Source: Apibacter sp. B3706
GTDB lineage: Bacteria > Bacteroidota > Bacteroidia > Flavobacteriales > Weeksellaceae
NCBI RefSeq assembly: GCF_011082725.1
Contig: NZ_CP049715.1
Coordinates: forward strand, 992,001-1,056,000
Direction: 5' to 3'
Length of the DNA: 64,000 nucleotides
Of this stretch, positions 6,571 through 26,650 are shown piece after piece; position 1 is the stretch's first letter, and every line of letters starts with the position of its first letter. The position numbers were made by a program, and so were the translations under genes. The notes beneath the pieces are model-generated. The model was given only the letters and a program-made list of their open reading frames with translations, had not been told where the DNA came from and made no database searches.

Positions 6571-6606
6571 TGTCCTTTTTTGAAGTAATCTGTAATTTGA
6601 TATTTG
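6571..6606 (+). promoter_or_regulatory. Late-promoter element 1 (TGTCCTTT ... ATATTTG)
   Basis: TGTCCTTT at 6571 and a T-rich box ending in TTTG at 6606, a total of 36 bases. The same two boxes at the same or one-base-different spacing recur at 9865, 13382, 16010 and 26615. The downstream box is one base off TAnnTTTG (GATATTTG). The head gene ATG lies 30 bases further on. Confidence 0.6.
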
Positions 6607-6636
6607 TATATCAATTATAGTCTTAGCTATCATACA

Positions 6637-7890
6637 ATGAATAAAAGTATTATTACTTCACTTTTTACAGAACCGTGGTATCTGGATAAGCCTTTTCGAG
6701 TTATAGGGAATTTATATGCAGATTTTATTATGAAAAATAAGGAAAAAAATGAAGCAGAATATTTGGCTTCCATCAATTATTTTCCTTATTCGGAAAGCAA
6801 TAAAAAAATAGCCATAATTCCTTTATCAGGTATCGTTAGAAAATATGGCTACGGATCCACTTCCGCAATATCCGATTTACTCGATGGGATGGAGCAGGAC
6901 GATAGTATAGCCGGGGTGGTTTTTTTAACTGACAGCCCGGGGGGTATGGCTAGTGGTACAGGAATGTTGGCAGAAAAAATTTTTAATTTTAAAAAGCCTA
7001 CCGCCAGTTATATCAAGGGGTTATCTTGCTCTGCAGCTTATTATATTAATGCTGCTACCGATAAAATTTTTGTAGATAAAAATGCCGATTGGGTCGGTTC
7101 GATAGGAACGCTTATATCTTTTGTTGATTGGGTACCTCTTTTTGAAAAATTCGGTGCTAAATATTATGAAATATATTCCTCCTTTTCTTCTGAAAAAAAT
7201 AAATCTTTTCGTGATTTAGTTTCCGGTAATCCTGAAAAATTAAGAGAAGAAATAGACACTTACGCAAAAGATTTTATAACACACATGCAAACATTCCGTA
7301 AAAATATGGATGAGGACGTCTTTAAAGGGGGCACATGGAGGCCTAAAGAAGCCGTAAAAAAAAGACTTGCGGATGCTATAGGTAATTTACAGGATGCAAT
7401 TGATTATATCGCTCAAAAATCAAAAATTAATTCAAATCAAAATAATATGGCAGAAAAAAAATATCCTAAAATAGCCTCTATTTTAGGTTTAGAGGTTTCG
7501 TTAAAATCCGGTTTTTTATTTGGTCAAAAAACCGTAAACTTATCAGAAAATCAGTTAGATTTAATTGAAAATGCTTTAAGTTCTAATTTAACCGATGAAA
7601 CGGTTAATTCATTGTCAACCGATAAAAAGAATCTGGAACAAAAACTTTCGGATAATTTAAATCAGATTGAAAATATTAAAAAAGAAATTGCCACTTCTTT
7701 AAAAAATTGCAATTTAACCGGTACCGGTACTATTGTCGAAGATATTAAATTACTTTCTTCAAAAGTTATAGAGTATGGACGAAAGGATGGCGAAATTCCT
7801 ACTTCAGTTTATTCATCAAAGGATAAAGAAGATGCGCCATTAGAAAATGATATTCTTACTAATAATTATAAATTTTTATATAACAAGTAA
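6637..7890 (+). CDS. S49-family capsid maturation protease with C-terminal scaffold-like region
   Basis: 417 residues from ATG 6637. Residues about 55-260 form an SppA/phage-protease-like S49 domain: LTDSPGG, then SCSAAYYINAA where the second serine (about residue 132) is the likely nucleophile, then VGSIGT, and a lysine-bearing SSEKNKSFRD stretch that may supply the general base. From about residue 265 the protein is helical and charged, as in proteases fused to an internal scaffold. It cleaves capsid precursors during head assembly (family knowledge). TAA overlaps the ATG of the capsid gene (TAATG), so the two are translationally coupled. Confidence 0.85.
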   Translation: MNKSIITSLFTEPWYLDKPFRVIGNLYADFIMKNKEKNEAEYLASINYFPYSESNKKIAIIPLSGIVRKYGYGSTSAISDLLDGMEQDDSIAGVVFLTDSPGGMASGTGMLAEKIFNFKKPTASYIKGLSCSAAYYINAATDKIFVDKNADWVGSIGTLISFVDWVPLFEKFGAKYYEIYSSFSSEKNKSFRDLVSGNPEKLREEIDTYAKDFITHMQTFRKNMDEDVFKGGTWRPKEAVKKRLADAIGNLQDAIDYIAQKSKINSNQNNMAEKKYPKIASILGLEVSLKSGFLFGQKTVNLSENQLDLIENALSSNLTDETVNSLSTDKKNLEQKLSDNLNQIENIKKEIATSLKNCNLTGTGTIVEDIKLLSSKVIEYGRKDGEIPTSVYSSKDKEDAPLENDILTNNYKFLYNK

Positions 7891-8912
7891 TGCCCAGTAT
7901 AAATTTAGACGGTTTAGCTAAAGCAATAGCTACCTATGCGAAAGTAGAAAAAAAATTAGTGTTAGCAGAATTTGCTAAGGCCTTGAAAGTTTCTGTTGAC
8001 AAGTATTGCAAAATAGTAACTAAAGTTAATGGAGAGTATCATTTATATAATACTGTGATGAGCCATGTCGTACAGGGTTTTGAGCCTAAATGGCAAGAAT
8101 TGGGTGAATGGTACGCAAGAGAATCTATTTTAAAAAGTTATCGTCAAAAAGTTAATTTTTCAATCGTTCCTGCTAACGTTTTAGGAACGGCTTTAGCAGA
8201 ATTATACCAGGAAAATAAAGAGCCTACCGTTAAAGAAATAGTCAGGGTTATCATTAAGGATTTGCTTATTCAAATAACGGATGATTTGGAGCTTTTATCC
8301 ATGCAAGGGAGTTACGATCCTGCTAATAAATCCGGTAAGTTTGGGTTTTCTTTAGAGGGTTGGAATCAAATCGTTAAAAATTTGCTTAAAAATACAAACA
8401 ATCCGGCTTATAAAATTCCTTTGGATCCTTTAACCGAAGTTAATATTTACGATCAACTATTAAAATTTGAAAAGGGTATACCAAAAAAGATGAGAGCTAA
8501 GATAAAATACATTCACATGTCAACCAATAATGCCGATAATTACACCATCGAGTATGAGTCCAGAAAAGGACAAGTGGTTACCTATAAGGATTCGGACAAG
8601 ACTAAGTCGCCATTAGGAAAACGAGCCATTATTGGATATGATAACATGGATGACGATATTATTTTTGCTACCATTGAAGGAAATATGGTTAAACTTATAG
8701 ATTTAATAGAAAATCCGGCAACTATCAATGATGTTCAAAAAGAAGATTATAAAATTAAGCTTTTTTCAGATTTTGAGTTAGGTTATGGTTTCGCATTAAA
8801 TGAGGCTGTATTGGTAGCTAATTTCACCGATAAAACTAAAGGATTAGGGGATGAAAAATTGATGGAATTGTACTATCCTCACGAATCAGGTATTAAAAAA
8901 AATAATGTTTAG
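7890..8912 (+). CDS. Major capsid protein (HK97-fold candidate)
   Basis: 340 residues immediately after the maturation protease, the usual place of the capsid gene. Contains a long helical N-terminus, an acidic middle (ITDDLELLSMQGSYDP) and beta-rich C-terminal segments (FSDFELGYGFALNEAVLVANF). Sequence motifs of the HK97 fold are too diverged to recognise by eye, so the call rests on position, length and composition. Confidence 0.7.
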   Translation: MPSINLDGLAKAIATYAKVEKKLVLAEFAKALKVSVDKYCKIVTKVNGEYHLYNTVMSHVVQGFEPKWQELGEWYARESILKSYRQKVNFSIVPANVLGTALAELYQENKEPTVKEIVRVIIKDLLIQITDDLELLSMQGSYDPANKSGKFGFSLEGWNQIVKNLLKNTNNPAYKIPLDPLTEVNIYDQLLKFEKGIPKKMRAKIKYIHMSTNNADNYTIEYESRKGQVVTYKDSDKTKSPLGKRAIIGYDNMDDDIIFATIEGNMVKLIDLIENPATINDVQKEDYKIKLFSDFELGYGFALNEAVLVANFTDKTKGLGDEKLMELYYPHESGIKKNNV

Positions 8913-8914
8913 TT

Positions 8915-9481
8915 ATGGATAAAAAAAAGAATTGTTTTGATGATGTTGCCGTTGAAAACTTATTGTATTGTGCAAACGATGAAACAGACGCCGGGTTGTC
9001 AGAAAATAACATCTATTATATAACTGAAAAAGATGTTAAGACTCTGGAAATACCTTTAAAATCAGGAAACTATAAAGAGGCAGGCACTATTTCTAAAGAA
9101 ATCGTTACCGAAACCGGTAAAGGTTTTGTACGGTTGGATTGTTTAATTGATGAAAACGAATTAACAACTGCTTTGGCAGGAAAAACGGGTAATAAGAAAC
9201 AATCGACCTCTTTAGATATATTCATCCCCGGAATTAGAGCGGAAGTATTAGGTTTTATACGAAAATTTAAGAGTGACCGTTTAATTTTTATAGTTACAAC
9301 CAGGGACGGAAGGAAATTTGTAATAGGTAATAAAATAAATTCTGCTTATATGGAAGATGCTAAAGGGTCTTCAGGTAAAGGACAAGATGATAACAACGGA
9401 GTTTCTGTTACATTAACCGCCAGAGCTCCGTTATTAGAATATACCGGCTCAATTCCTTTAAAAGTTGAAAAAAATGATTAA
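8915..9481 (+). CDS. Virion protein, possible tail-tube or head-decoration protein
   Basis: 188 residues directly after the capsid gene. Beta-rich, with RDGRKFVIGNKINSAYM followed by a glycine/serine/aspartate loop (SSGKGQDDNNG) and VSVTLTARAPLLEY, which resembles the strand-loop-strand pattern of tail-tube proteins. The alternative is a head-stabilising protein. Its 3' end overlaps the start of the next gene by 8 bases. Confidence 0.45.
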   Translation: MDKKKNCFDDVAVENLLYCANDETDAGLSENNIYYITEKDVKTLEIPLKSGNYKEAGTISKEIVTETGKGFVRLDCLIDENELTTALAGKTGNKKQSTSLDIFIPGIRAEVLGFIRKFKSDRLIFIVTTRDGRKFVIGNKINSAYMEDAKGSSGKGQDDNNGVSVTLTARAPLLEYTGSIPLKVEKND

Positions 9482-9806
9482 ACAAGAAATTCCGGCAAAT
9501 ACAGGTATTTATTTTGAGCTTTTTAATACAAATTCTACCAGTTTTATTATGCCGGATAATACCACGATCAATTTTTCGTTAGGTATGCCTTATAATTCAT
9601 TGGACATTTACAAAATGGGTAATTTTCCTTACTTAGGCTTGAAAGAAGGAGCCGAAATACTCTTTAAAGATGAAAGTATAGAAAATATAATTAAGTATAT
9701 TTCACAAGCAAAGCGTAAAGGTGATGTTCTTATTTTAAGTAAATCTTCAACTTCTGAGAAAGTTAAAAAAGCAGCGGATGAAAAGCTGAAATTTTTTATA
9801 ACATAA
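9474..9806 (+). CDS. Small virion-block protein, unknown
   Basis: 110 residues from ATG 9474 (MIKQEIPANTG); an in-frame TTG at 9465 is a weaker start. Beta-rich N-terminal half, helical lysine-rich C-terminal half. Ends the first head transcript, 19 bases before a strong terminator. No family recognised. Confidence 0.5.
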   Translation: MIKQEIPANTGIYFELFNTNSTSFIMPDNTTINFSLGMPYNSLDIYKMGNFPYLGLKEGAEILFKDESIENIIKYISQAKRKGDVLILSKSSTSEKVKKAADEKLKFFIT

Positions 9807-9825
9807 TTATTTATATTGTTAACAG

Positions 9826-9857
9826 AATAACCGCTAAACAGGCGGTTATTTTTATTT
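9826..9857 (+). terminator. Rho-independent terminator ending the capsid transcript
   Basis: 9-bp perfect stem AATAACCGC/GCGGTTATT (9826-9834, 9842-9850), seven-base loop, then a T-rich tail. The next late-promoter element begins seven bases after it. Confidence 0.85.
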
Positions 9858-9864: not shown

Positions 9865-9907
9865 TGTCCTTTGAGTCAAGATAACAAATTTTACAATTTT
9901 GTAAAAT
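9865..9907 (+). promoter_or_regulatory. Late-promoter element 2 with a 20-bp perfect palindrome
   Basis: TGTCCTTT at 9865 and ATTTTG ending at 9901 (37 bases in total, one longer than the other copies). The downstream box lies inside a perfect palindrome at 9888-9907 (ATTTTACAA-TT-TTGTAAAAT) which overlaps the ATG at 9906. A transcript starting after the TTTG box would be leaderless or nearly so. The palindrome could be an operator, though AT-rich palindromes can arise by chance. Confidence 0.6.
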
Positions 9908-10640
9908 GGATAGTAAAAGTGCTATAAAGGAATGGTTTAAAAATGGTTGCGAATATAAAGCCGGAATACAATTATATTCTCAGATACCACACAATAAAAG
10001 ATTATTAAAAATTTTTCAATCAAAAAATACCCCCTTTACTTGTCAAAAATTATCCTATGAATTAACTAATTTTTTAAATGCTTCTAACTCATCTTCTACA
10101 GGTGTTACCGATAGTTTAAATAATGCTAAGCCAAATAAAGTTGATATAAAAACTAATATTTCCATAAAAAAGCCTATTTCTTTTTATCCTGTAGAGCTAC
10201 ATAATGTTTATAAAAAAAGAATTTCTTCTTATTATGATGCATGCACGTTAAAAATTCAATTGAATGAATTACAAGAGGAATTATATGAGGAGGCCTTAGA
10301 TCTTCAATTAAAAATTTTTAAAACTTGGGAGATTAATGATAAATGCTTTAAAATTCTTGAGCATTATGAAAATTATAAACGCGTTTTACCCTTTGAAACT
10401 CAAAAACAATACGAAAATTTAAGTCCAATGTCTCTAGTTAATGAACGACAACGGCTATATAGCAGGGTAACAAAAAGAAAAAAAACACTTTTAAATTTAG
10501 AAAGCAAATATTCAGTAATGCCTGAAGGTCCCTTAAAAAATAATTTGCTGACTAAAATTAATAATAAAAGGGAAGAATTGCAGGAATTAACCCTTCAAAT
10601 TGAAAAGTTAAGCAATACAATTGAAACTAATGAACGCTAA
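9906..10640 (+). CDS. Coiled-coil phage protein of the terminase block, unknown
   Basis: 244 residues. The N-terminus has an AIKEWFKNGCEYKAGIQLY motif; residues about 110-240 are long amphipathic helices with strong coiled-coil character (QRLYSRVTKRKKTLLNLE and QELTLQIEKLSNTIE). No domain recognised. The 3' end overlaps the SufE-like gene by 11 bases, so the two are coupled. Confidence 0.5.
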   Translation: MDSKSAIKEWFKNGCEYKAGIQLYSQIPHNKRLLKIFQSKNTPFTCQKLSYELTNFLNASNSSSTGVTDSLNNAKPNKVDIKTNISIKKPISFYPVELHNVYKKRISSYYDACTLKIQLNELQEELYEEALDLQLKIFKTWEINDKCFKILEHYENYKRVLPFETQKQYENLSPMSLVNERQRLYSRVTKRKKTLLNLESKYSVMPEGPLKNNLLTKINNKREELQELTLQIEKLSNTIETNER

Positions 10641-11025
10641 AATTGAATCCTTAATACAGCCAATACTCGCATTAAATACGTGGGAAGAAAGATACCGGTA
10701 TTTTATTGATTTAGGAAAAACCGGTCTTGATTTTCCGTCTAGTTTAAAAACTAATGAAAACGTTATTAAAGGTTGTCAGTCGGAAGCTTGGTTGTATATA
10801 GAAAGTGTTAATGGTACAGTATATATTTCCGGCTATTCGACTTCAATTTTTGTAAATGGCTTTATCCGTTTATTAATAAATATATATTCCGGTGAAAATA
10901 ATATTGATATAAAAAATAATTCTTATCCGTTTTTAGCTTTAATTGGTATGCAGGAAATGGTTACACCTATGCGTGGGAATGGATTATTAGCTATTCACAA
11001 TAAAAAAAAAAGGTTTCACGAATGA
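10630..11025 (+). CDS. SufE-like iron-sulphur/sulphur-transfer protein encoded by the prophage
   Basis: 131 residues from ATG 10630. It matches SufE across its length: TWEERYRYFIDLGK near the start, then NVIKGCQSEAW with the conserved sulphur-accepting cysteine (Cys49 here), a glycine-rich beta segment (YISGYSTSIFVNGFIRL), and a C-terminal MVTPMRGNGLLAI. In cells SufE accepts persulphide from SufS and passes it to the SufBCD scaffold. Here it sits between virion genes and has no SufS, SufB or SufC neighbours. Its role in the phage is unknown; it could divert host Fe-S assembly or be a co-opted structural protein. Confidence 0.8.
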   Translation: MNAKIESLIQPILALNTWEERYRYFIDLGKTGLDFPSSLKTNENVIKGCQSEAWLYIESVNGTVYISGYSTSIFVNGFIRLLINIYSGENNIDIKNNSYPFLALIGMQEMVTPMRGNGLLAIHNKKKRFHE

Positions 11026-11039
11026 TTAGTTACTAATAT

Positions 11040-11585
11040 ATGATCGTTAAATTTAATAAAGACAGTACTCTTAATAAGTTAAAAGCTGCTTATTTGGATG
11101 ATAAAGTGAAATTAACAGCTTTTGAAGAAAAATTATTAGAGCAGCTTAAATATATTTTTAGTTTGCGACTTAAGAATAAGTATACAAAGGGACAGGCTAT
11201 TGATAAATTTATGACTGAATACGGCGTATCTCGAGCTACTGCCTACCGTTATTATTCTAAAAGCGTATACTTATTCGGGGAACTTGAGGATATTAATTTA
11301 AAAGCAGAAAAAATTTTTTTAGCAGAGCAATATTGGTTTTTGTATCAAATGCAGGTTCGTGATCGTGCATGGGATGATGCTAGAAAGGCCTTAGATTCTT
11401 ATAAGGACCTTTTCGATTTTTCTAATAGTACATTGGATGCTGATATAGATAAATTGAAAGCTAGTAATTATCGACTTGTTATTCCTAAGGAATTTTTGGC
11501 CTATATGAAGGAAATATCATCAAAAGGTGTAGTTAATATGAACATGACGGCCGAAGACATCGGGTATGAAGAATTAGGAGAATAG
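11040..11585 (+). CDS. Terminase small subunit candidate
   Basis: 181 residues, directly upstream of the large terminase (16-base gap). Residues about 50-80 look like a helix-turn-helix (KFMTEYGVSRATAYRYYSKS), as expected for a DNA-recognising small terminase; a helical C-terminal part would mediate oligomerisation. The call rests on the motif plus position. Confidence 0.7.
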   Translation: MIVKFNKDSTLNKLKAAYLDDKVKLTAFEEKLLEQLKYIFSLRLKNKYTKGQAIDKFMTEYGVSRATAYRYYSKSVYLFGELEDINLKAEKIFLAEQYWFLYQMQVRDRAWDDARKALDSYKDLFDFSNSTLDADIDKLKASNYRLVIPKEFLAYMKEISSKGVVNMNMTAEDIGYEELGE

Positions 11586-11601
11586 TTTTACATCAAGATG
11601 T

Positions 11602-13119
11602 ATGATTATAAATGAAAAAAAAATAGAACTCAACGTACCGCAAATGCAAGCAGTTGCGGAGGTTGAAATTTTTAGAAAAAAATATATTTATTTAGAATAT
11701 GCCAGGGGTACCGGAAAGTCTTTCATTTTAGCTTTTTTTATTTTAAAAGCAGTAAAGGAGATGCCCCGAGCTACAGGGGTTTTGGTTGGATCTAGCTATG
11801 TTCAAATATTGTCACGAACTTTGCCCTCCACTAAAGAAGGCTTATCTAATTTCGGAGTTCATGAAAATATAGATTATGTAATCGGAAAGTCCGGTGTTTC
11901 TAAAGGTTTTGAATTACCTTTTCAAGCTCCCTCCAATTGGCGTAATGTGATTCACTTTCGTAATGGGCATATTATTATAATGGTTTCATTAGATATGACC
12001 GATGCCGGACGGGGTATAAATTCTTATTATGTATTAGGAGATGAAGCAGCATTATTGGATAAAGAAAAACTTTTTTATAATGTTCATACTACTAATAGAT
12101 CTTATAAAACTGAATTTAAACACTCACCAATGTTGAATTCACAAATTTTCGTATCATCAACTCCGTTAACTCGTAAGGGAAAATGGTTTGTTGAAATGGA
12201 AAAGGAAGCTTTAAAAAATCCTAAAGAATTTGCATTTTTAAAAGCTAATGCTTACGCTAATTATAAAAATTTATCACCTCAATGGTTTAAGAAGATGTTG
12301 TTAAACTCCCCTTCTGATATCCATTATAATGCTGAAATATTAAATATACGTCCTCCTTCTATTCAAAATGGGTTTTATTCTAATCTTAATCCGGATATCC
12401 ACTATTATGGTAATAAATATGATTTAATCTATTTAGAAGAAGTAGGTAATAATTACAGTAAGAAACATAATACCTCACGTCAAGATACAGATATAGTTAA
12501 AACCATTGGACTTCAGTTTAATTTAGATTTTGGAAAAAGAATTAATTCAATTTCTGTATCTCAATATCTTAGGTCCATAAATGAGGTTCGTTTTGTTAAG
12601 GAGTTCTTTAATAAAGACCCTCTTGATATGTTAGATTTATTGCCTGAAGTTGTACATTATTTTAATAAACATGAGGAAAAAACTGTTGAGCTCTATCACG
12701 ATGTTTCAGGCTATGCAAAAGAAAAAGGAGCTAAAGAATCTTTAGCTGAAAAGGTAATGAAATATTTTCGCTCTCAGGGATGGCGTGTTATTAATAAAAC
12801 TCCTAAAACCAATAATCCGGGACATATGGCGAAGTTTTTGGTTTTAAAAGAAATTTTGTCTGAGAGAAACAAAAATTTACCTAAAATACGTATTAATAAA
12901 GACAATTGTCCAAACCTTTGTATTTCTCTTGAAAATGCAGAAGCAAAAATAAAAGAGAATAGCGAATATGGTAAAGATAAATCTTCTGAATTATCTCTTA
13001 CCATTCCTCAAGAACAAGCAACGCACCTTTCTGATACTTTAGATTATAATATTTATTGGCAATTTCATTTAGCCGTTAAGCATGGTTATAAAGATCCTTT
13101 CACTTTTCCTATTTCATAA
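11602..13119 (+). CDS. terL: Terminase large subunit (DNA-packaging ATPase/nuclease)
   Basis: 505 residues. Walker A ARGTGKS at residues 34-40 and Walker B VLGDEA with D147 and E148 define the N-terminal packaging ATPase. A coupling motif-like VSSTPL follows near residue 190. The C-terminal half includes LQFNLDFG and LYHDVSG, acidic strands of the type forming an RNase-H-like nuclease. It packages and cuts phage DNA at the portal. A gene-free 300-base stretch follows. Confidence 0.9.
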   Translation: MIINEKKIELNVPQMQAVAEVEIFRKKYIYLEYARGTGKSFILAFFILKAVKEMPRATGVLVGSSYVQILSRTLPSTKEGLSNFGVHENIDYVIGKSGVSKGFELPFQAPSNWRNVIHFRNGHIIIMVSLDMTDAGRGINSYYVLGDEAALLDKEKLFYNVHTTNRSYKTEFKHSPMLNSQIFVSSTPLTRKGKWFVEMEKEALKNPKEFAFLKANAYANYKNLSPQWFKKMLLNSPSDIHYNAEILNIRPPSIQNGFYSNLNPDIHYYGNKYDLIYLEEVGNNYSKKHNTSRQDTDIVKTIGLQFNLDFGKRINSISVSQYLRSINEVRFVKEFFNKDPLDMLDLLPEVVHYFNKHEEKTVELYHDVSGYAKEKGAKESLAEKVMKYFRSQGWRVINKTPKTNNPGHMAKFLVLKEILSERNKNLPKIRINKDNCPNLCISLENAEAKIKENSEYGKDKSSELSLTIPQEQATHLSDTLDYNIYWQFHLAVKHGYKDPFTFPIS

Positions 13120-13380: not shown

Positions 13381-13381
13381 T

Positions 13382-13417
13382 TGTCCTTTTACTCTCCTAT
13401 TAATTAAAATAGATTTG
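13382..13417 (+). promoter_or_regulatory. Late-promoter element 3 (TGTCCTTT ... TAGATTTG)
   Basis: TGTCCTTT at 13382 and a perfect TAnnTTTG box (TAGATTTG, 13410-13417), 36 bases overall. It abuts a T-run. The ATG codons at 13419 and 13425 are only 1 or 7 bases downstream, which points to a leaderless message. Confidence 0.65.
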
Positions 13418-13418: not shown

Positions 13419-13763
13419 ATGTATATGAAAAATACAATCTTTCTAACCGAAGCTTTAAAAATCATGCACTCTAAAAATTCAGATGGAACGCCCGTCCATT
13501 TTGATGTAGAAATAAGAGAGTTTTCACGTCAAAATAAAACGGGCGGTAAATACAAAATATATAATGACGCTAAACTATTATCTCAAAATAAATCTTCAAA
13601 AAAAGGCATAATTAAAAGATATAATTATATCAATGAAAAAGATAAAAGAAAACAAAACCATTGGGAAAATCGAACCAGAAATTTAGAGCTGGCAAATGGA
13701 GAAATCAAAAGAATCAACATTTTGTTTATAATAAAATTTAACGGTAAAAATGTAATTTATTAA
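13419..13763 (+). CDS. Small basic phage protein ahead of the portal gene, unknown
   Basis: 114 residues from ATG 13419, or 112 from ATG 13425 which sits at a more natural distance from the -7 box. Very basic, with GGKYKIYNDAKLLSQNKSSKK and a predicted RNA/DNA-binding character. No family recognised. One base separates its stop from the portal ATG. Confidence 0.5.
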   Translation: MYMKNTIFLTEALKIMHSKNSDGTPVHFDVEIREFSRQNKTGGKYKIYNDAKLLSQNKSSKKGIIKRYNYINEKDKRKQNHWENRTRNLELANGEIKRINILFIIKFNGKNVIY

Positions 13764-13764
13764 T

Positions 13765-15075: not shown

Positions 15076-15085
15076 AATTTAAAAT

Positions 15086-16009: not shown

Positions 16010-16045
16010 TGTCCTTCTTTTTTTTTATATCGGCTTTTAATTTTG
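16010..16045 (+). promoter_or_regulatory. Late-promoter element 4 (TGTCCTTC ... AATTTTG)
   Basis: TGTCCTTC at 16010 and ATTTTG ending at 16045, 36 bases overall. It drives the fibre block, whose first ATG is at 16062, 16 bases beyond the box. This is the only copy with C as eighth base. Confidence 0.55.
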
Positions 16046-18404: not shown

Positions 18405-18411
18405 TTAAAAG

Positions 18412-19308: not shown

Positions 19309-19341
19309 AGACAGCCCGTAAGTAATTGAGAGAAAATAAAT

Positions 19342-20157
19342 ATGAGATGTAAAAACAAAGTCCTGAAATTAGCTTTTTCGGGATCAAAATACAGAAGAAT
19401 ACCGGATATATATGATTTAATAAAATCAAAAAAATACAATAGAATAGTAGAAGTTTTTGGCGGCTCGTGTTGTATTTCTAATAATATGTTGAGAGATAAG
19501 GTCGTCAATCAGGCCGTTGCTAATGATTTTGACGGATATTTTGAAAAATTCGAAGAAAATATAATTTTTAAAGAAAATCTTATAAAACAACTGTTACAAA
19601 AAGGATTTAAAAAATCAGAAAGCATGCTTTCCACGGAAAAACAAGAATATCTAAAAAAATTATTAAGCCCGATTAAAGAAGATAAAAACTTACTTGCATT
19701 TCTCGCCAAAAATTTTGCGCATAGTGCGGTCCGTGCAACTGAAACTATAGATATAAAAGATTTCAATTATTTAAGGGGTGAGTTGTCGACACGTCAAGAA
19801 AGACTTTATTATGAAGAATTAAAAAATGTACAGCTTTATCGATTACATTATGAAGATTTTATCAGTAAATACGTGCAAAATGACGACAAAACCACTTTGG
19901 TAGTTTTGGATCCCCCCTATATGAACGCGCGACAAAAACAATATCAAAATACCACGTATTTCGGTATCACGGAGACGTTAAAACTATTAAATCTAATGAA
20001 GGATAAAAGAAATGATTTTTTATTTTTTAACATGCGTAAAGACGATACTACTGCTTTATTGGACTTATTAAATCTTAAATATACCTACCAAACGCGCCTG
20101 ACATCAATTTCAAAAAATAATGTACGGGAAGATTTTTTAGCTTATATAACCTTTTAA
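19342..20157 (+). CDS. D12-class adenine-specific DNA methyltransferase
   Basis: 271 residues. SAM-binding motif I appears as VEVFGGSCCIS and the catalytic motif IV as VVLDPPYMN, in the Dam/D12 order. LAFSGSKYRRI at the start takes the place of the usual KWAGGK-type motif. It methylates adenine N6, probably modifying phage DNA against host restriction; the recognition site is unknown. Its place between fibres and lysis genes in the late transcript is unusual for a methylase and suggests modification shortly before packaging. Confidence 0.8.
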   Translation: MRCKNKVLKLAFSGSKYRRIPDIYDLIKSKKYNRIVEVFGGSCCISNNMLRDKVVNQAVANDFDGYFEKFEENIIFKENLIKQLLQKGFKKSESMLSTEKQEYLKKLLSPIKEDKNLLAFLAKNFAHSAVRATETIDIKDFNYLRGELSTRQERLYYEELKNVQLYRLHYEDFISKYVQNDDKTTLVVLDPPYMNARQKQYQNTTYFGITETLKLLNLMKDKRNDFLFFNMRKDDTTALLDLLNLKYTYQTRLTSISKNNVREDFLAYITF

Positions 20158-20160
20158 CGA

Positions 20161-20571
20161 ATGAAAGAAATAATAGATAAAATAATGTCTTTCGGCGATT
20201 GGTTTATAACCAACGCTTTCAAAAAAGAATTTTTATTTCTGTTAGTCTGCGCCTTAATGCTCATCCCCGCCTATATATTCCACGATGAGTTGGAAGATAA
20301 AAAAAGAGAAAAGATAGAATGCGACAAAAACAGAGAAGAGGAAAAAGACGAGTATTATTTAGAACTGAAGAAAAAAGATGAAAAATACGATGAACTGGAA
20401 AAAAAGTACATAGAACAAAACCAAAAATGTTATGAGAAATGGGTGGAATACTTAGGCGAAACCAAAAAAGAATATCACCATATAACCAAAGATATTCAAG
20501 ATAACGAAAAAATAATTAGAGAAGCAAACGAAGCTATTTTAAGATTAAAAAAACTAAAAAAAGAAAAATAG
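20161..20571 (+). CDS. Membrane-anchored coiled-coil lysis protein (holin- or Rz-like candidate)
   Basis: 136 residues. One hydrophobic segment (FLFLLVCALMLIPAYIF, about residues 22-40) is followed by a long charged coiled coil (residues 45-136). This N-in membrane protein with a coiled-coil body directly upstream of the amidase fits a lysis cassette. A holin usually has more membrane segments, so an inner-membrane spanin-like part is also possible. Confidence 0.5.
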   Translation: MKEIIDKIMSFGDWFITNAFKKEFLFLLVCALMLIPAYIFHDELEDKKREKIECDKNREEEKDEYYLELKKKDEKYDELEKKYIEQNQKCYEKWVEYLGETKKEYHHITKDIQDNEKIIREANEAILRLKKLKKEK

Positions 20572-20572
20572 T

Positions 20573-20953
20573 ATGAAACTAAAAATTATCATATCGGCCC
20601 TTGTAGTACTCCTTTTTTGTTATTTACTCAAGCCTTATCCTTTAGAGTATAAGACGCATCACAGAAATACAGAAAGTAAGAAAAACCGCTTTGCTGTTTC
20701 TGAGTTGCCGAATATCGATTCCATAAAAACCATAACAAGCAAAAATGTAAATAACATCAAAGCGAAAAGAAAAATTTTTTGGAATTCCGAAAAAAGAAAA
20801 AATAGAGTTCTGTCTCAACTAGAAGAGGAAATAGCCTTAGCACAAAAAGAAATTACAACAGAATTGAATAAAGATAAAGAAGATAAAAATTTAAAAAATA
20901 TATCTACAGATCCAATAAAAAAAAAACAAAATAAAAAAACTTCAAAAAATTAA
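20573..20953 (+). CDS. Signal-anchored lysis-cassette protein, unknown
   Basis: 126 residues. A hydrophobic N-terminus (IIISALVVLLFCYLL) acts as a signal anchor; the rest is highly basic and disordered, with a KKKQNKKTSKN end. One base separates its ATG from the upstream stop region. It may be a pinholin-like or inner-membrane accessory; no domain is recognised. Confidence 0.5.
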   Translation: MKLKIIISALVVLLFCYLLKPYPLEYKTHHRNTESKKNRFAVSELPNIDSIKTITSKNVNNIKAKRKIFWNSEKRKNRVLSQLEEEIALAQKEITTELNKDKEDKNLKNISTDPIKKKQNKKTSKN

Positions 20954-20956
20954 ACA

Positions 20957-21493
20957 ATGAGAAAAGTAGCGATAGTTGTCGGGCATGCCAAAAACAATCC
21001 GGGCGCTTTTTCTAAATGGTTAAAGCCCGAATGGGAATATAATTTAAACGTGGCCGAAGAACTAAAAAAAAATAATTCTTCCTTATATAGTATTTTTTGC
21101 CATGAAGGATATGACGGCGGTTATTATGCGATGGAAAAACGAACCGCCAATAAAATAAATGCAGAAGCATTTGATTTAGTTTTGGAATTACACTACAATT
21201 CGGCTTCTCCTATGGCTCACGGAACCGAATGTTGTTACTGGTTCGCCAGTAAAAAAGGGAAAGAATATGCGCAAAATATATCTTCCGAAATTAGCCGTTA
21301 TTTTTACACTACGAATAGGGGTATAAAAGCATTATATAATAAGAATGATCGGGGCTATTGGTTCACCTACTTAATGAAAGCGCCTGCTGTGATTGTTGAG
21401 CCGTTTTTTGGTTCCAATGAATTTGATTCCTTAAAATTTCAAGATCCTGTAAAATACGCACAAGCATTACATAAAATTATTGCCTCCTTATGA
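20957..21493 (+). CDS. N-acetylmuramoyl-L-alanine amidase (endolysin)
   Basis: 178 residues, amidase_3 fold. Zinc-binding His10 in the AIVVGHAKNNPG motif and His79 in LELHYNSA, with catalytic Glu148 in VIVEPFFGS; a second zinc ligand may be a Glu near 25. It cuts the amide bond between muramic acid and L-alanine. There is no signal peptide, so it needs a holin to reach the wall, which fits the two membrane genes upstream. Its stop overlaps the next ATG. Confidence 0.85.
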   Translation: MRKVAIVVGHAKNNPGAFSKWLKPEWEYNLNVAEELKKNNSSLYSIFCHEGYDGGYYAMEKRTANKINAEAFDLVLELHYNSASPMAHGTECCYWFASKKGKEYAQNISSEISRYFYTTNRGIKALYNKNDRGYWFTYLMKAPAVIVEPFFGSNEFDSLKFQDPVKYAQALHKIIASL

Positions 21494-21990
21494 ATTATAC
21501 ACTGCTTTTTTGGTCGTTAATTTTAGTTCTTGTGCACACTTCTTGTTCCACAAGAAAAAAAGTTTTGCAAAAAGATCACCGGTTGGTAATACGTGATACC
21601 TTTATTAAAAAAGACAGCATTTACGTGGTTAAAGAAAAAATCAGTATTTTACCTTCTGTAAATGCCGATATAATTGCCAATCCTTGCGATTCAACCGGGC
21701 GATTACACGTATTTAAAAAGGTGATCCCCTTCCCTTTCGGTCGCATCGAGCTAACCTCTGAAAATAATAACATACTGGCAAAAGTAAATACCGACAGTAT
21801 TAATTCCGTTTTTCAAAAACAATATGAAGAGCGCCATAAAAAACAAATCGACAGGATTTCAGAACTTGAAAAGGTCAACAAAACGTTAAAAAATACCCCT
21901 TTCAATGGGTGGAAAATTGGTTGTTTGGCTTCTTTATTTTTACATATGATTGCCATTTTCTATTTAGTTAAAAATAACCCTTTCCGATGA
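21490..21990 (+). CDS. Spanin-like lipoprotein with C-terminal membrane segment
   Basis: 166 residues. A hydrophobic N-terminus ending in HTSC looks like a lipoprotein signal with a loose lipobox (Cys19). The middle (DSIYVVKEKISILPSVNAD ...) is beta-like with a short coiled coil (ISELEKVNKTLK), and the C-terminus has a hydrophobic segment (IGCLASLFLHMIAIFYLV). Outer-membrane lipid plus inner-membrane anchor in one chain is the topology of a unimolecular spanin such as T1 gp11 (family knowledge), which disrupts the outer membrane last. Context after the amidase supports this. Confidence 0.55.
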   Translation: MNYTLLFWSLILVLVHTSCSTRKKVLQKDHRLVIRDTFIKKDSIYVVKEKISILPSVNADIIANPCDSTGRLHVFKKVIPFPFGRIELTSENNNILAKVNTDSINSVFQKQYEERHKKQIDRISELEKVNKTLKNTPFNGWKIGCLASLFLHMIAIFYLVKNNPFR

Positions 21991-22769
21991 AATTAAACTT
22001 TCAAGTGGCCGAACAATGGGACGAATTAAACGAATATCAATTAAGTCAAATTTCCGGTTTACTTTTTAAAAAAAAATTAGAGGAAAAAGAACTTCAATAC
22101 CGACTAATCTTTTATTTATTTGTTAAAAAAAATACTTTAAGAAATTATTTTAAATTTAGAAAGCTTATCAATCGGGTTTCAATTAATGAATTAATCCCCT
22201 ATACTGAATTTATAATTAAAAATGTACGCCGTACGGTTTTTCCTGAAAGTATTAAAATAAAAGGGAAAAAATTTTATTCTCCTTCTCCCCGATTAAGCAA
22301 TCTTACCATAGAGGAATTTGCAACCGCGGATCTGTTTTTTTATCAATGGAAAACAAAAAATTCTTTGGTAGATCTTGAACGCCTGATTACCGTTTTGTAC
22401 AGAGAAAAAAGCAATATCGAAATTATCGGAGATATTCGCAAACCTTTTTCAAAATTGGACCTGCCCCGGCGCGGCAATTATATTCCTTATCTAGATTTGA
22501 ATACAAAATTAGCGATTGGATTAACCTATTTAAGCTGTCGTAATTTAATAATCAAAAAATACCCGGTCTTGTTTCCTCCCGCTAAAAACAATACTGAAAA
22601 TAAAAAATACCAATCTTTTTACCCGGCCTTACTTTCTACATGTTTAGGAGAAATACAGCCCCTGGGAAACTTTAACGAAGCTAAAAATACCTTGATTGAT
22701 AATTTTTTTTCCATAGTAACGGAAAATATTTTGCTTTACAGAGAACGGGAAAAAGCAGCTAAAAAATAA
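21987..22769 (+). CDS. Tail-block protein, possible tail-assembly chaperone
   Basis: 260 residues, overlapping the upstream stop by four bases (ATGA). Helical, with an LTIEEFATADLFFYQW motif in the middle and a basic C-terminus. Similar proteins lie before tail genes in Bacteroidota prophages, but I recognise no named family. Tail-assembly or tail-chaperone function is a guess from position. Confidence 0.45.
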   Translation: MKLNFQVAEQWDELNEYQLSQISGLLFKKKLEEKELQYRLIFYLFVKKNTLRNYFKFRKLINRVSINELIPYTEFIIKNVRRTVFPESIKIKGKKFYSPSPRLSNLTIEEFATADLFFYQWKTKNSLVDLERLITVLYREKSNIEIIGDIRKPFSKLDLPRRGNYIPYLDLNTKLAIGLTYLSCRNLIIKKYPVLFPPAKNNTENKKYQSFYPALLSTCLGEIQPLGNFNEAKNTLIDNFFSIVTENILLYREREKAAKK

Positions 22770-22773
22770 ATGT

Positions 22774-23298
22774 ATGAAAAAAAGAGACGGATCCTACCGG
22801 ACTATTAAAAATTACCTGAAAAATTTAGTTTCTCAAACCGACCATATAAAAGAGGTGATCGGCTTGTCTCGTACCGAATTGAATAACAACTTATCCTCTC
22901 GCACAAAACCGGAAGATCCTTTGTTGGTGCTTTGGGGCTATGAAGCAAAATTAGACGGAAACAATAAGCAACACACGCGAGGAGTGCGCAAAATTACGTT
23001 TTCCATAGTATACCGATGTAAACCCTCCGATTATGCGGCGCAAGAAAAAGCATATGAACTTAGCGAATTATTCGGCGTAAATCTCATTTCAAGAATACAT
23101 TGGGATGCAATCACTCATCAATACCGTTGGTTGTCTCATGAGTTCGACAAAGACAGCGTTACCTGGAATTTAGTGGAATACGACACGGCTAATGGGTTGT
23201 TTGGGTGTGAATTTACCGTAACACTTACCATTAAAGACTCCTTATCCGTTGATCCTGATTTTTGGAAGGATAAAAAAGATTATTGTAATTATATTTAA
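22774..23298 (+). CDS. Tail-completion-like protein, unknown
   Basis: 174 residues. Compact alpha/beta protein with LWGYEAKLDGNN, then FSIVYRCKPSDYAAQEKA and a C-terminal NGLFGCEFTVTLTIKD strand pair, a pattern that recalls tail-terminator or tail-completion proteins. It ends the transcript from the lysis cassette; the next gene has its own -7 box. Confidence 0.4.
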   Translation: MKKRDGSYRTIKNYLKNLVSQTDHIKEVIGLSRTELNNNLSSRTKPEDPLLVLWGYEAKLDGNNKQHTRGVRKITFSIVYRCKPSDYAAQEKAYELSELFGVNLISRIHWDAITHQYRWLSHEFDKDSVTWNLVEYDTANGLFGCEFTVTLTIKDSLSVDPDFWKDKKDYCNYI

Positions 23299-23383
23299 AT
23301 GATAAATATCAGTAAAAAAAATAGTATTTTTTTAATAATTGTTACTTATATCTTAAAATAATTATAATATTGATAATTATTTG

Positions 23384-23391
23384 TATTTTTG
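23384..23391 (+). promoter_or_regulatory. TAnnTTTG box before the 94-residue accessory gene
   Basis: TATTTTTG, four bases upstream of the ATG at 23396, so the message would be nearly leaderless. No TTG at the usual -33 distance is seen. Confidence 0.4.
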
Positions 23392-23395
23392 GAAC

Positions 23396-23680
23396 ATGAA
23401 AAAAGAACTAGCTAAAAAAATGTCTGAAGAAGAGCTTTTTATTGAAAATTTGCTTTTCATTTTAGAACCTATATATACTAAAGGTCTTCCTATCGATGAA
23501 TTTAAAAGAACCCTGTTATATTTATCCTCTTTGGAAATGAACTCCAAAAAAAATAAAAATAAAATTATGAACAACTGGGTTTTTCCGTATATAGAATCTC
23601 TTTTTGTCTTTTTTGACAGGCTGCAACGAAATGAAGAACTAAAAAAAGAAAACAGATATTTCATTGAAGATCTTAACTGA
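23396..23680 (+). CDS. Accessory small protein, paralogue of the gene at 25943
   Basis: 94 residues from ATG 23396 (the in-frame ATG-less extension upstream is ignored). All-helical, with NWVFPYIESLFVFFDRL as a conserved core. The gene at 25943 has NWTVPYIESLLIFFSEL and matching positions along the rest, so the two are paralogues on either side of the repressor. Unknown function; a role in lysogeny or superinfection immunity is possible from position. Confidence 0.55.
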   Translation: MKKELAKKMSEEELFIENLLFILEPIYTKGLPIDEFKRTLLYLSSLEMNSKKNKNKIMNNWVFPYIESLFVFFDRLQRNEELKKENRYFIEDLN

Positions 23681-23702
23681 TGAAATAAATTAACTGCTTC
23701 TC

Positions 23703-23747
23703 AACTAATTAACCTACTTTTTTATTTTATCTAATTAGTTTTTTTTT
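23703..23747 (+). terminator. Rho-independent terminator after the first accessory gene
   Basis: 9-bp stem AACTAATTA/TAATTAGTT (23703-23711, 23732-23740) with a 20-base loop and a seven-T run. Its T-run runs straight into the TATTTTTG box of the next gene. Confidence 0.75.
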
Positions 23748-23754
23748 ATTTTTG
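23747..23754 (+). promoter_or_regulatory. TAnnTTTG box before the HIRAN gene
   Basis: TATTTTTG, 16 bases upstream of the ATG at 23771, directly following a terminator T-run. Confidence 0.5.
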
Positions 23755-23770
23755 CTAATAATTAAAACTA

Positions 23771-24292
23771 ATGAAAATGTTCATCTATTTTGTCTTTTTT
23801 ATAATAATATTTCTTATAATTATTATAGAAATAAATAAAAGCAAACCTTCTAAAAACCTAGTTGAAAACAACAAGGAAGCTACCTGCAAAGAAGTACCCA
23901 AATACTATAAAAATAAAAAATTAAATCCCTATTCATACCCGTGCCCCGAAAATAAACGGGGGGTGTTAAATATAGAATTTTTTGTTACAGGTACTCATTA
24001 TAAAGCCATGAGGGTAGATAAAGAAAGGCAAACAATTATACACCAAATGAAAGTCCACAATACCGTAACGATTGAAAAAGAACCGGATAACCCTTACGAT
24101 CCCCGCTCAATAGTAGTTTTAAATGAAAAAGGAGAAGATCTGGGATATATTAGAAAGATAGACCAATTTAAACTGCTTCCTTATTTGGATGCGAATAAGT
24201 TTATAATTGCTGCCCATATATACCGATTTTATACTAATGAATACGGAAAAAACGTAATTATACGCGTGTCAATCGGCGAAATATTAAAATAA
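23771..24292 (+). CDS. Membrane-anchored HIRAN-domain protein
   Basis: 173 residues. The first 24 residues are a single hydrophobic anchor (FVFFIIIFLIIIIEI). The C-terminal half has a HIRAN-like core: FFVTGTHYKA, then HNTVTIEKEPDNPYDPRSI and GEDLGYIRK. HIRAN domains usually bind DNA ends in helicases such as HLTF; a membrane-tethered form is unusual. A lysogenic-conversion or exclusion function is a guess, since the gene is in the accessory island. Confidence 0.65.
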   Translation: MKMFIYFVFFIIIFLIIIIEINKSKPSKNLVENNKEATCKEVPKYYKNKKLNPYSYPCPENKRGVLNIEFFVTGTHYKAMRVDKERQTIIHQMKVHNTVTIEKEPDNPYDPRSIVVLNEKGEDLGYIRKIDQFKLLPYLDANKFIIAAHIYRFYTNEYGKNVIIRVSIGEILK

Positions 24293-24327
24293 AAGTTACC
24301 ATTATAAATCTCTAAAACTTTGTATAT

Positions 24328-24894
24328 ATGAAAGCATTATTATTTTTATTGGGAGCATTACTATTAATTTCTTGTAATAAAAAAAATTCCGATACTAAAA
24401 CTCTTACGAAAGATGAAATCCTTACTTATCAACTGGATTCCATAAAAAAAAATTTACCTGAAGAAAAAAAGAAAATCTATAGTTTATTTAAGATTGACGT
24501 ACTAAAAATTCCCGACAGCTCATTTATACGTATTGAGGAGACCGAAAAAGGAATAACATACAGAAAAGTACTTGATTATAAAGAATTAAATCTCTTTAAA
24601 GTTATTAAGATTGTTGTCCACAAAGAAACTCAATATGGTAAAAATGTAATTTTTTTAAGTGATACTAATAAAGATGAATGGGCTAATATTTTAAATATGT
24701 CTGATCAAATATATTCCATAATGGGAATGGATGATGATAAAAAAGGCCCCCTAAGCTATGTTGAAAAAAATAAATACGATATGGGGAGACTAAATATTCT
24801 TAGAACTTGGGAAAAAATACAATGGGCTGTTGGATATTCTATTAGTCCACAAGATATAAAATTAACAATATGGAATGTAGAAAATATAGATTAA
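24328..24894 (+). CDS. Prophage-encoded lipoprotein (moron)
   Basis: 188 residues. A clear lipoprotein signal ends LLLISC with Cys16 as the lipid site. The mature part is helical and charged with no recognised domain. An own weak -7 box (AAACTTTG) lies just upstream. Prophage lipoproteins in accessory islands often act in surface exclusion; this is only inferred. Confidence 0.6.
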   Translation: MKALLFLLGALLLISCNKKNSDTKTLTKDEILTYQLDSIKKNLPEEKKKIYSLFKIDVLKIPDSSFIRIEETEKGITYRKVLDYKELNLFKVIKIVVHKETQYGKNVIFLSDTNKDEWANILNMSDQIYSIMGMDDDKKGPLSYVEKNKYDMGRLNILRTWEKIQWAVGYSISPQDIKLTIWNVENID

Positions 24895-24985
24895 AAGCAA
24901 TTACATAAAATATAAAACATACTCACTTAAGAAAAGTAACTTTTTGGTTTTTAACAGGTTTATCAGATACTATAAATGTTTAGTT

Positions 24986-25375
24986 TTATTTCTTTTCATA
25001 AGCTGACAAATCATTCTTCAACTCATTGATTTCTTCCCTGTATGATTCATTTAACGCTTCTAACCTTTTTACTTTCAACTCTAAAGAATTAATTTTTTTT
25101 TGTATTTGTACAGAATCCGTTAAAACTACAACGGCTGTTTTTTCATTATTCTCATTAACTGTTTTTAGCATCTCTCCTTTCCCCGTTAAAAGCCATTCAG
25201 GATTAATCTCAGGGAATAAGTGTAAGATATTTTCTACTTTGTCTACGCCTATTGTTTTATTTTTCCTATACTGACTAGCAAAAGAGCCATTTGAAAACCC
25301 AACAGTTTCTTCAAATTTTCTTACAGAAATGCCCTTATAATCAATAAAAGACTTAATTCTTTTAACGGTATTCAT
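24986..25375 (-). CDS. Helix-turn-helix repressor with coiled-coil C-terminus
   Basis: 129 residues on the minus strand, the only leftward gene between base 1 and the integrase. HTH XRE-like N-terminal domain (SVRKFEETVGFSNGSFASQY, then FPEINPEWLLTGKGEML, a hallmark of Bacteroidota phage repressors). The C-terminus (residues 85-129) is a coiled coil, and the S24 autocleavage domain is absent, so SOS-type self-cleavage is not expected. It sits in the middle of the tail region facing away from the gene-free stretch at 25376-25484, its likely operator. Confidence 0.75.
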   Translation of the reverse strand: MNTVKRIKSFIDYKGISVRKFEETVGFSNGSFASQYRKNKTIGVDKVENILHLFPEINPEWLLTGKGEMLKTVNENNEKTAVVVLTDSVQIQKKINSLELKVKRLEALNESYREEINELKNDLSAYEKK

Positions 25376-25484
25376 ATATTCTTAATTAAAAAATATAAAA
25401 TATTTCTTACATTTTATTTTTTGTGTAGAAAATATCTTATATATTTGTACCAAATAAAGTACAAAAAGTATAACAAACAAATAT
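25376..25484. promoter_or_regulatory. Divergent control region upstream of the repressor
   Basis: TATATTTG at 25440-25447 with TTG at 25421-25423 (16-base spacer) forms a rightward promoter of flavobacterial type. An imperfect inverted repeat (AATATTTCTTAC against GTAGAAAATATC, about 25401-25436) overlaps it and could bind the repressor. GTAC repeats follow (25447-25471). Confidence 0.5.
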
Positions 25485-25559
25485 ATGAGAAAATATAATA
25501 TTTATAATCAAGAAATTATCAATCTATTAATGAGAAGACATATTTTAAATAAAATTTAA
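25485..25559 (+). CDS. 24-residue ORF after the divergent promoter
   Basis: ATG 25485 to TAA 25559, peptide beginning MRKYNIYNQEIINLLMRR. Placed like a small lysogeny regulator directly opposite the repressor, but too short to assign. Could be a truncated HTH protein or a leader peptide. Confidence 0.3.
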   Translation: MRKYNIYNQEIINLLMRRHILNKI

Positions 25560-25563
25560 ACCC

Positions 25564-25953
25564 ATGAAAAAAACTATACCATACAATGAGCAAGAAAGAT
25601 TTCAACCGATAGGCACACAAATTCTTTTTTTATTGAAAAATACCAAACATTTCATTCATTTAATGCAGGAAGCCGAAGCAAGCGAATTAACGGAAAAATT
25701 ATTTCCAAAAGCAGATCTTAAAGAAAAAAAGATACTTCACAGCTTTTTTGGGTTTTACAACAATATTTCGGTCTTAGATGTTTTTAAAGAAAAACCATCC
25801 TATGAAATGATGCGGCAACTGGCCCATATAATCAATACGTATGATTCTTCCTTTCAACCTTTTGTTGAAATTGTTCAACAAACGGTAGATCATACAAAAA
25901 AGGAACATGTAAAATATATAGGAAAAAAATATACTCCATCTTATGAGCCATAA
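25564..25953 (+). CDS. Accessory protein of unknown function
   Basis: 129 residues, helical and without recognised domain (HFIHLMQEAEASELTEKLF, then LHSFFGFYNNISVLDVF). First complete rightward gene after the repressor region; its 3' end overlaps the next gene by 11 bases. It could belong to the early lysogeny or immunity functions. Confidence 0.5.
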   Translation: MKKTIPYNEQERFQPIGTQILFLLKNTKHFIHLMQEAEASELTEKLFPKADLKEKKILHSFFGFYNNISVLDVFKEKPSYEMMRQLAHIINTYDSSFQPFVEIVQQTVDHTKKEHVKYIGKKYTPSYEP

Positions 25954-26218
25954 AAAAAACTATGAATCATCGGCGGAAATACGCGAAGCACAATATCAAG
26001 AATTACTTTCTTCCATTTACGCGAGCGGGTGTCGTATAGAAGATTACTCAAAAGTATTGCTTTATCTTCAAAGCATCCTTCTGGCTCAAAATAAAGAGAA
26101 AAAAGAGGTGTTGGATAATTGGACGGTCCCCTACATAGAATCCCTTTTAATTTTCTTTTCCGAATTAAAAAAAGATAAGGAAATTATGGATGCTAACAGA
26201 AATTACATTAAATTTTAA
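25943..26218 (+). CDS. Accessory small protein, paralogue of the gene at 23396
   Basis: 91 residues, helical, with NWTVPYIESLLIFFSEL and LLYLQSILLAQNKEKKE matching the gene at 23396 (LLYLSSLEMNSKKNKNK, NWVFPYIESLFVFF). Both are short paralogues flanking the repressor, suggesting a duplicated accessory unit. Function unknown. Confidence 0.55.
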   Translation: MSHKKNYESSAEIREAQYQELLSSIYASGCRIEDYSKVLLYLQSILLAQNKEKKEVLDNWTVPYIESLLIFFSELKKDKEIMDANRNYIKF

Positions 26219-26231
26219 TTAAATTTAAAAT

Positions 26232-26528
26232 ATGGTAGAATATAAAGAAGAAATTAAAAAATTGTTAACCTCTCTTTACGAACAAGGTAACCCGGTTGAT
26301 CATGACGCTCAATTGACGACCCGGGAAATATATTACGATTTACTCTCTTTGCTTCCCGAAAAAGCCATAGACGAATACGACGTATATGAAGTGCTTTCCT
26401 CGCTTTATACCCCTTTTTACGTGTCTTCTTCTAAATATGAAGTGGTAATGACTGCAGAAGGAACCCCGAAAATTATTGAAAATAAACGGGAAGGAGTCAA
26501 ATTCCTTTGGCATTTAAAAAGAATATGA
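26232..26528 (+). CDS. Accessory protein of unknown function
   Basis: 98 residues with an LTTREIYYDLLSLLPEKAIDEYDVYEVL region that looks like a helical domain followed by two strands (YEVVMTAEGTPKIIEN). No family recognised. It is the last gene before a strong terminator at 26583. Confidence 0.5.
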   Translation: MVEYKEEIKKLLTSLYEQGNPVDHDAQLTTREIYYDLLSLLPEKAIDEYDVYEVLSSLYTPFYVSSSKYEVVMTAEGTPKIIENKREGVKFLWHLKRI

Positions 26529-26582
26529 CCTACTACGTATCTAAAAATAGAAATTCAAAAAGATAAAATAAATAGAATTCAT

Positions 26583-26615
26583 ATACCGCTTGAGAAATCA
26601 AACGGTATTTTTTTT
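26583..26615 (+). terminator. Rho-independent terminator closing the accessory island
   Basis: Stem ATACCG/CGGTAT (26583-26588, 26603-26608) with an inner TTGA/TCAA helix capped by a GAAA tetraloop, then eight Ts. The last T is the first base of the TGTCC box of late-promoter element 5. Confidence 0.85.
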
Positions 26616-26650
26616 GTCCTTTCTTTTCATCGCATTATTCCTTCATTTTA
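26615..26650 (+). promoter_or_regulatory. Late-promoter element 5 (TGTCCTTT ... ATTTTA)
   Basis: TGTCCTTT at 26615 and ATTTTA ending at 26650, 36 bases overall; the final G of the TTTG box is replaced by A. It drives the tail-completion and tape-measure genes, with the first ATG 10 bases downstream. Confidence 0.5.

Follow-up and report, generated by a model that had tools for sequence, protein, structure and literature searches.

A conserved TGTCC box pair ahead of late-gene blocks in a Leef_1-type Apibacter prophage: a probable late-promoter family and its candidate activator

Results

The prophage and its late-gene blocks

The stretch of DNA analysed here (the window: 64,000 nucleotides of Apibacter sp. 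B3706, contig NZ_CP049715.1, positions 992,001 to 1,056,000) carries a prophage that is, by gene homology and gene order, of the Leef_1 type (Helgolandviridae-like). Its protease, capsid, terminase, portal and tail genes are homologous to those of Leef_1-type phages and stand in identical order, and the order matches that of Polaribacter phage Leef_1. We describe five plus-strand sites ahead of the late-gene blocks, each an octamer TGTCCTTY followed at fixed distance by a second box resembling the host -7 element, which probably act as late promoters, together with a candidate protein for reading them. Genes were annotated by BLAST against Leef_1, by reading the translations directly and by Pfam and PHROG assignments. 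The sites, blocks and right end of the prophage are as follows.

6571..6606, plus strand: predicted late promoter 1, with TGTCCTTT at 6571-6578 and -7 box GATATTTG at 6599-6606, before the head protease gene
6637-9806: head protease and capsid block, after late promoter 1
6637-7890: head protease gene
9865..9901, plus strand: predicted late promoter 2, with TGTCCTTT at 9865-9872 and -7 box CAATTTTG at 9894-9901, before the 9906 gene and the terminase genes
9906-13119: terminase block, after late promoter 2
13382..13417, plus strand: predicted late promoter 3, with TGTCCTTT at 13382-13389 and -7 box TAGATTTG at 13410-13417, before the 13419 gene and the portal gene
13419-16006: portal block, after late promoter 3
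13765-15075: portal gene
16010..16045, plus strand: predicted late promoter 4, with TGTCCTTC at 16010-16017 and -7 box TAATTTTG at 16038-16045, before the fibre and lysis block
16062-26528: block with fibres, a methylase-like gene and an amidase (fibre and lysis), after late promoter 4
26615..26651, plus strand: predicted late promoter 5, with TGTCCTTT at 26615-26622 and -7 box CATTTTAC at 26644-26651, before the tail and tape-measure block
26661-35571: tail and tape-measure block, after late promoter 5
35563-36750, minus strand: tyrosine integrase (Pfam PF00589, E 8e-17; PHROG integrase), right end of the prophage

The five sites in the window

A pattern search of the window for TGTCCTTY returned plus-strand copies at 6571, 9865, 13382, 16010 and 26615, exactly where the original prediction, made from the letters of this DNA, had placed five such sites in gaps before late blocks. 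Non-coding gaps account for 5.8% of positions 6001-36750, and they hold all five sites (five of five by chance, about 7e-7). When aligned to the family matrix, the distances from the first base of the octamer (T1) to the end of the second box were 36, 37, 36, 36 and 37 for sites 1 to 5; the predicted spacing of 36-37 bases thus holds, with three sites at 36 and two at 37 rather than four and one. A matrix built from relatives only ranked the five sites 1st and 3rd-6th among all plus-strand positions of the window. The octamer count as such was only marginally high (9 observed vs. 4.1 expected, reached in 3 of 100 shuffles), so that the case rests on positions, spacing, context and relatives.

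Each of four sites has counterparts at the same genes elsewhere. A site corresponding to late promoter 1 precedes the protease gene in Leef_1 and in six other genomes (G141, G147, G151, G166, G209, G357), and in Leef_1 a site at 34590 stands ahead of the homologue of the 9906 gene. The counterpart of late promoter 3 lies before the homologue of the 13419 gene in 10 of 10 relatives and in Leef_1, and relatives have sites ahead of the tape-measure gene, as late promoter 5 is here.

Further octamer copies occur in the window. Three reverse copies had been placed inside genes; one of them is at 8565-8572 and not at 8575. They had been said to lack the second box, which proved wrong for the copy at 28498-28505: an antisense TGTCCTTT with a correctly spaced box occupies 28468-28505 (minus strand) within the tape-measure gene (score 22.4), either by chance or as an antisense promoter. 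The claim that no plus-strand copy lies inside a gene also failed, as a sixth copy with a box at spacing 37 is found at 56699-56735 (plus strand) in a host open reading frame (ORF; 55958-56779) outside the prophage, probably by chance.

Conservation and spacing among relatives

For comparison we used three sets of relatives: 10 same-family genomes with terminase homologues near 50% identity; 27 loci from GTDB species (Riemerella, Capnocytophaga, Chryseobacterium, Flavobacterium, Aquimarina, Galbibacter, Mesonia, Zunongwangia, Aequorivita, Pricia and others); and 79 loci from viral contigs. The loci compared share ancestry. The original prediction would have been refuted had related phages lacked a conserved TGTCC box, and the box is conserved in about 100 of them: these Flavobacteriales phages and prophages share the box pair at fixed spacing, pointing into late genes. 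In the first ten relatives and Leef_1, the late strand carries TGTCCTTT 68 times and the opposite strand 6 times. A matrix built without conditioning on the second box recovered it nonetheless, with A at position 30 (88%), T at 33 and 34 (96% and 100%) and G or C at 36 (96%). Among 91 dereplicated loci, the distance from T1 to the end of a box A..TT.[GC] was exactly 36 bases for 236 TGTCCTTT sites and 37 for 23, compared with 0-12 sites for any other distance between 20 and 59; as a control, the 167 other octamers of the same composition averaged 1.3 such pairs.

Outside these prophages, the pattern TGTCCTTT-N20-22-ATNTTTG showed no excess over its reversed version in 320 family genomes, so the box pair is not a chromosomal promoter class. 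Lone matches in G006 and G099 were located in ordinary genes or short contigs and were taken as chance, and a pattern scan of viral contigs with 14 fixed bases was discarded, the matches listed being single-hit, chance-level loci. A phage-specific box shared at fixed spacing by several late operons is what characterizes factor-dependent phage late promoters, and on this comparison we regard it as nearly certain that the promoter family is real.

Strand flips and concerted box changes

At about 18 loci the head and tail genes stand in inverse orientation to the terminase genes, and so do their boxes. Between the opposed blocks of such loci we found a divergent pair, AAAGGACA-N9 or N10-TGTCCTTT; no convergent pairs were seen. 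Examples of such back-to-back late promoters, whose TGTCC boxes are 9-10 bp apart, are L222 9325-9335, L271 9383-9394 and L287 9377-9387.

A joint switch of the sites to TGTCCTAT, with spacing unchanged, is seen in three loci (L224, L283, L294) and again in G604 and G434, which were found independently, and one phage type (L281 and L282) has two TGTCATTT sites. Phages of Flavobacterium hosts include both TTT and TAT versions, so the box change tracks the phage, and the change of many sites in concert points to one trans-acting reader per phage. It is highly probable, judging from these patterns, that a single phage-specific factor reads the box.

The -7 box and predicted start sites

Bacteroidota sigma-A promoters consist of a -33 TTTG and a -7 TAnnTTTG element (PMC6847099, PMC2483708). 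In Flavobacterium johnsoniae, transcription starts 4 or 5 nucleotides past the -7 box and leaders are longer than 10 nucleotides in 87% of predicted transcripts (PMC6847099). With the second box defined by fixed positions 30, 33 and 34 (a definition that applies to some of the counts), a same-strand ATG was present within 200 nucleotides at 243 of 271 intergenic boxed sites. Its A stood at offset 40, i.e., 4 nucleotides past the box, in 96 of the 243, late promoter 2 being such a case in the window, and a second mode lay 50-55 from T1. The offset of 40 fits the 4-5 nucleotide rule of F. johnsoniae, implying that, if the rule holds here, about 40% of the late mRNAs would be leaderless.

Relative to the predicted start, TGTCCTTT would cover roughly -40 to -33, where a host promoter has its -33 element. 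The sites do not carry the -33 TTTG itself, since a G at position 9, which would create it, occurs in about 1% of them; the -33 element is weak in host promoters too (PMC6847099). The late -7 box keeps the A..TT core, with the full TAHHTTTG in 27 of 246 late sites, a weakness expected of a promoter that needs help. At the promoters before the tape-measure gene in G141, G151, G209 and G166, the start codon is enclosed by an inverted repeat (CATCTTGC ... GCAAGATG) made up of the -7 box and the start region, possibly an operator or a means of translation control.

Terminators at the promoters

Two structures resembling intrinsic terminators, the first read directly from the sequence, accompany sites of the window.

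9828..9853, plus strand: terminator-like hairpin (TAACCGC-loop-GCGGTTA) followed by TTTTT, upstream of late promoter 2
26583..26614, plus strand: terminator-like hairpin and T run, abutting late promoter 5

A hairpin with T run was present at 35 of 75 sites vs. 2.75 expected from shuffles that preserve composition only. In 22 cases it lies upstream, mostly abutting TGTCC, and in 13 it lies in the spacer or spans TGTCC. In nested cases, e.g., G239 23722 and G357 33442, the terminator T run doubles as the -7 box. This placement at or within the promoters suggests that late blocks are insulated from the preceding block.

ORF-A, a candidate reader of the box

Two ORFs near the start of the late block, ORF-A followed by ORF-B, were considered as regulators.

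5457..5464, plus strand: host-type -7 box TATTTTTG, presumed promoter of ORF-A
5486..5962, plus strand: ORF-A, 158 amino acids, candidate late activator reading TGTCCTTT, directly before the late block in every intact relative checked
6122..6568, plus strand: ORF-B, conserved neighbour of ORF-A, probably structural; the window copy matches its family weakly (E 0.055)

A regulatory role for both ORFs (starting at 5486 and 6122) was considered at first and then given up in the case of ORF-B, whose beta-rich pattern resembles that of a structural protein. When 12 genomes were compared, ORF-A proved to be the sole non-late gene family present in 11 of 11 intact phages; its homologue in Leef_1 is gp39, annotated as hypothetical. 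Across the 320 family genomes ORF-A is confined to those with a Leef-type terminase, apart from a remnant in G008. This remnant (L193, G008:C6:5642-6070), from another genome of the genus to which the window belongs, is a decayed ORF-A with six stop codons and a relic of a related prophage. In the opposite direction, G356 has the terminase without ORF-A, its prophage being cut off beside a transposase-like ORF with the protease and capsid genes lost as well, and at two loci apparently devoid of ORF-A the gene is present elsewhere in the genome. As an independent test, ORF-A by itself was used to search 396 genomes of the order, and the code was recovered: of the four additional loci, three carry 6-9 boxed TGTCC sites each and the fourth, on a short contig (G581), has a single TGTCCTTT site and an ATG 40 bases on.

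The AlphaFold2 model of ORF-A (51 sequences; predicted local distance difference test score 88) has a beta-alpha-alpha-beta-alpha-alpha part and C-terminal helices, of which helices 107-120 and 130-141 are arranged like a helix-turn-helix. Weak fold rows, to a winged-helix/MntR-like fold for residues 89-158 (Z 3-4.7) and to an F-plasmid relaxosome chain for residues 1-95 (Z 3), were not taken as homology, and a single-protein scan with Leef gp39 matched only Leef itself. In most TGTCCTTT phages the second C-terminal helix is (R/K)DFxRKK-like. In TGTCCTAT phages it reads R(N/Q)YQRH in 4 of 4 cases with a readable ORF-A, and two of these four came to light only once the pattern had been noted. 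A strict tie of the D-to-N/Q change to the box change was dropped, as D is also absent in several TGTCCTTT phages.

The full host-type TAHHTTTG occurs upstream of the ORF-A gene in 21 of 38 cases vs. 2.4 expected. In the inverted clade a TGTCC promoter frequently precedes ORF-A itself (L223, L271, L284, L287, G592), which suggests autoactivation there. Taken on its genomic association and predicted structure, ORF-A is probably the reader of TGTCCTTT.

Other features of the late blocks

A SufE-family Fe-S assembly gene (PF02657, E 3e-27) lies in the late operon at 10630-11025 (plus strand), directly 5′ of the terminase genes; no relative has it at that position, and the host's own copy is 40% identical. 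The fibre-like genes at 16497-17450 and 17457-18404 are a near-identical tandem pair whose differences fall mostly toward the C-terminal part.

Discussion

We propose, with a probability of roughly 0.7, that the five sites are late promoters and that a phage factor, most likely ORF-A, binds TGTCCTTT and thereby switches the late blocks on. In the simplest cascade a host-type promoter, read with host sigma, would drive ORF-A first, and ORF-A would then drive the late promoters. At these, host RNA polymerase with sigma-A would read the degenerate -7 box, which may be too weak to work well alone and would end 4-5 nucleotides ahead of the start, and TGTCCTTT would substitute for the host -33 element. 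The factor bound there would recruit or position polymerase, turning all late blocks on together. At many sites transcription would begin at the A of the ATG and give a leaderless late mRNA, and the terminators upstream of or nested in the promoters would block read-through, so that every late block would form its own unit. To a bolder version we give even odds: that ORF-A is the first member of a new phage transcription factor family, with a predicted beta-alpha-alpha repeat followed by a C-terminal helix-turn-helix, which would retarget Bacteroidota sigma-A polymerase by substituting for the -33 contact and drive leaderless late mRNAs from promoters with spacers able to hold the terminator of the preceding operon, its recognition helix co-evolving with the box.

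Several points weigh against the proposal. The TGTCCTAT group is probably one clade and hence one event, and L281 has only two altered sites. ORF-A and the code might go together simply because the phages have a common ancestry, and the ORF-A-only search gave no phage with the box code yet a different terminase type. ORF-A has no Pfam or PHROG assignment and falls into no recognisable family, and Foldseek and VIA-align gave no confident PDB match for its fold.

The late promoters may be real and yet be read by another protein. This could be a phage alternative sigma factor that recognises both boxes, ORF-B, some early protein that escaped recognition, or an activator of the host. We consider this unlikely, given that ORF-A alone among non-late families was present in all intact phages first compared. 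Rigid spacing would also be expected of a sigma factor that reads both boxes, but Pfam scans matched ORF-A to no sigma-factor family (the other early proteins were clustered and only some of them scanned). ORF-B is placed equally well, but it looks structural and its window copy is poorly conserved, while a host factor is disfavoured by a box that varies by phage within one host genus and is unused on chromosomes. The original prediction had left the choice between a phage-specific activator and a sigma factor; its phage-specific reader is supported by the conserved spacing, strand flipping, concerted change and lack of a host-chromosome excess, and, as a host-type -7 box is kept in degraded form, an activator that cooperates with host sigma is the favoured choice.

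Two further explanations touch the nature of the sites themselves. The octamer resembles the antitermination element boxA, whose consensus is TGCTCTTT, and terminators are close by, so it might act in RNA, as a boxA-like or processing signal in a read-through leader. This is very improbable: the word differs from boxA, its distance is fixed to the -7 box and variable to the ATG, it lies upstream of the predicted start, and divergent TGTCC pairs stand 9-10 bp apart; moreover, most terminators precede TGTCC, and a terminated RNA would not include it. Chance, or plain host sigma-A promoters with an accidental upstream word, might be suggested by the marginal octamer count and by the frequency of -7-like boxes in AT-rich DNA. 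We give this equally little credence, as conservation, spacing, strand flips and concerted change extend across about 100 phages, the spacing statistics exclude chance, and late -7 boxes are weaker than the host consensus whereas ORF-A promoters match it.

The late-promoter code can be given base by base, occurs in about 100 phages of many genera and comes with a candidate factor; together with the natural variants TGTCCTAT and TGTCATTT, that factor makes the recognition code testable. The box pair can help to mark late operons and start codons in flavobacterial prophages whose annotation is poor, and may serve as an orthogonal expression tool for the hosts of these phages.

Our literature search, with most subscription journals outside its scope, found no account of the motif, nor of any late-promoter code or late activator in Bacteroidota phages. 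A described relative, Leef_1 (NC_062750.1, Helgolandviridae; PMC8776804), shares the late gene order, a terminase about 45% identical, gp39 as ORF-A homologue and six TGTCCTT sites on the late strand; its paper makes no mention of a promoter or regulator of this kind. With Bacteroidota sigma-A promoters the sites share the position and core of the -7 box, but they have TGTCCTTT in place of -33, a degenerate -7 box and many predicted leaderless starts.

The activators C of phage Mu and Ogr/Delta of P2 are small phage proteins, made before the late phase, that activate several late operons with host polymerase. ORF-A, as a proposed small pre-late activator of several late operons, would resemble them; it differs in host phylum, box and spacing, and Pfam scans gave no sequence match to those families. 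In T4 middle promoters a MotA box near -30 replaces the -35 element, in the AsiA/MotA mode of sigma appropriation (PMC6755090). We recognised no MotA or AsiA homologue, ORF-A having no Pfam match and the early region having had no profile search for AsiA. In both systems, on our reading, a phage box replaces the upstream sigma element, the host -10 or -7 element is retained and many scattered promoters are switched jointly. The one described here would serve late genes, with its box near -36 rather than -30, predicted leaderless starts and nested terminators, and its -7 box is weak, whereas T4 middle promoters require a good -10. We judge the box pair and its predicted reader to be a new promoter and regulator family, of a type already known.

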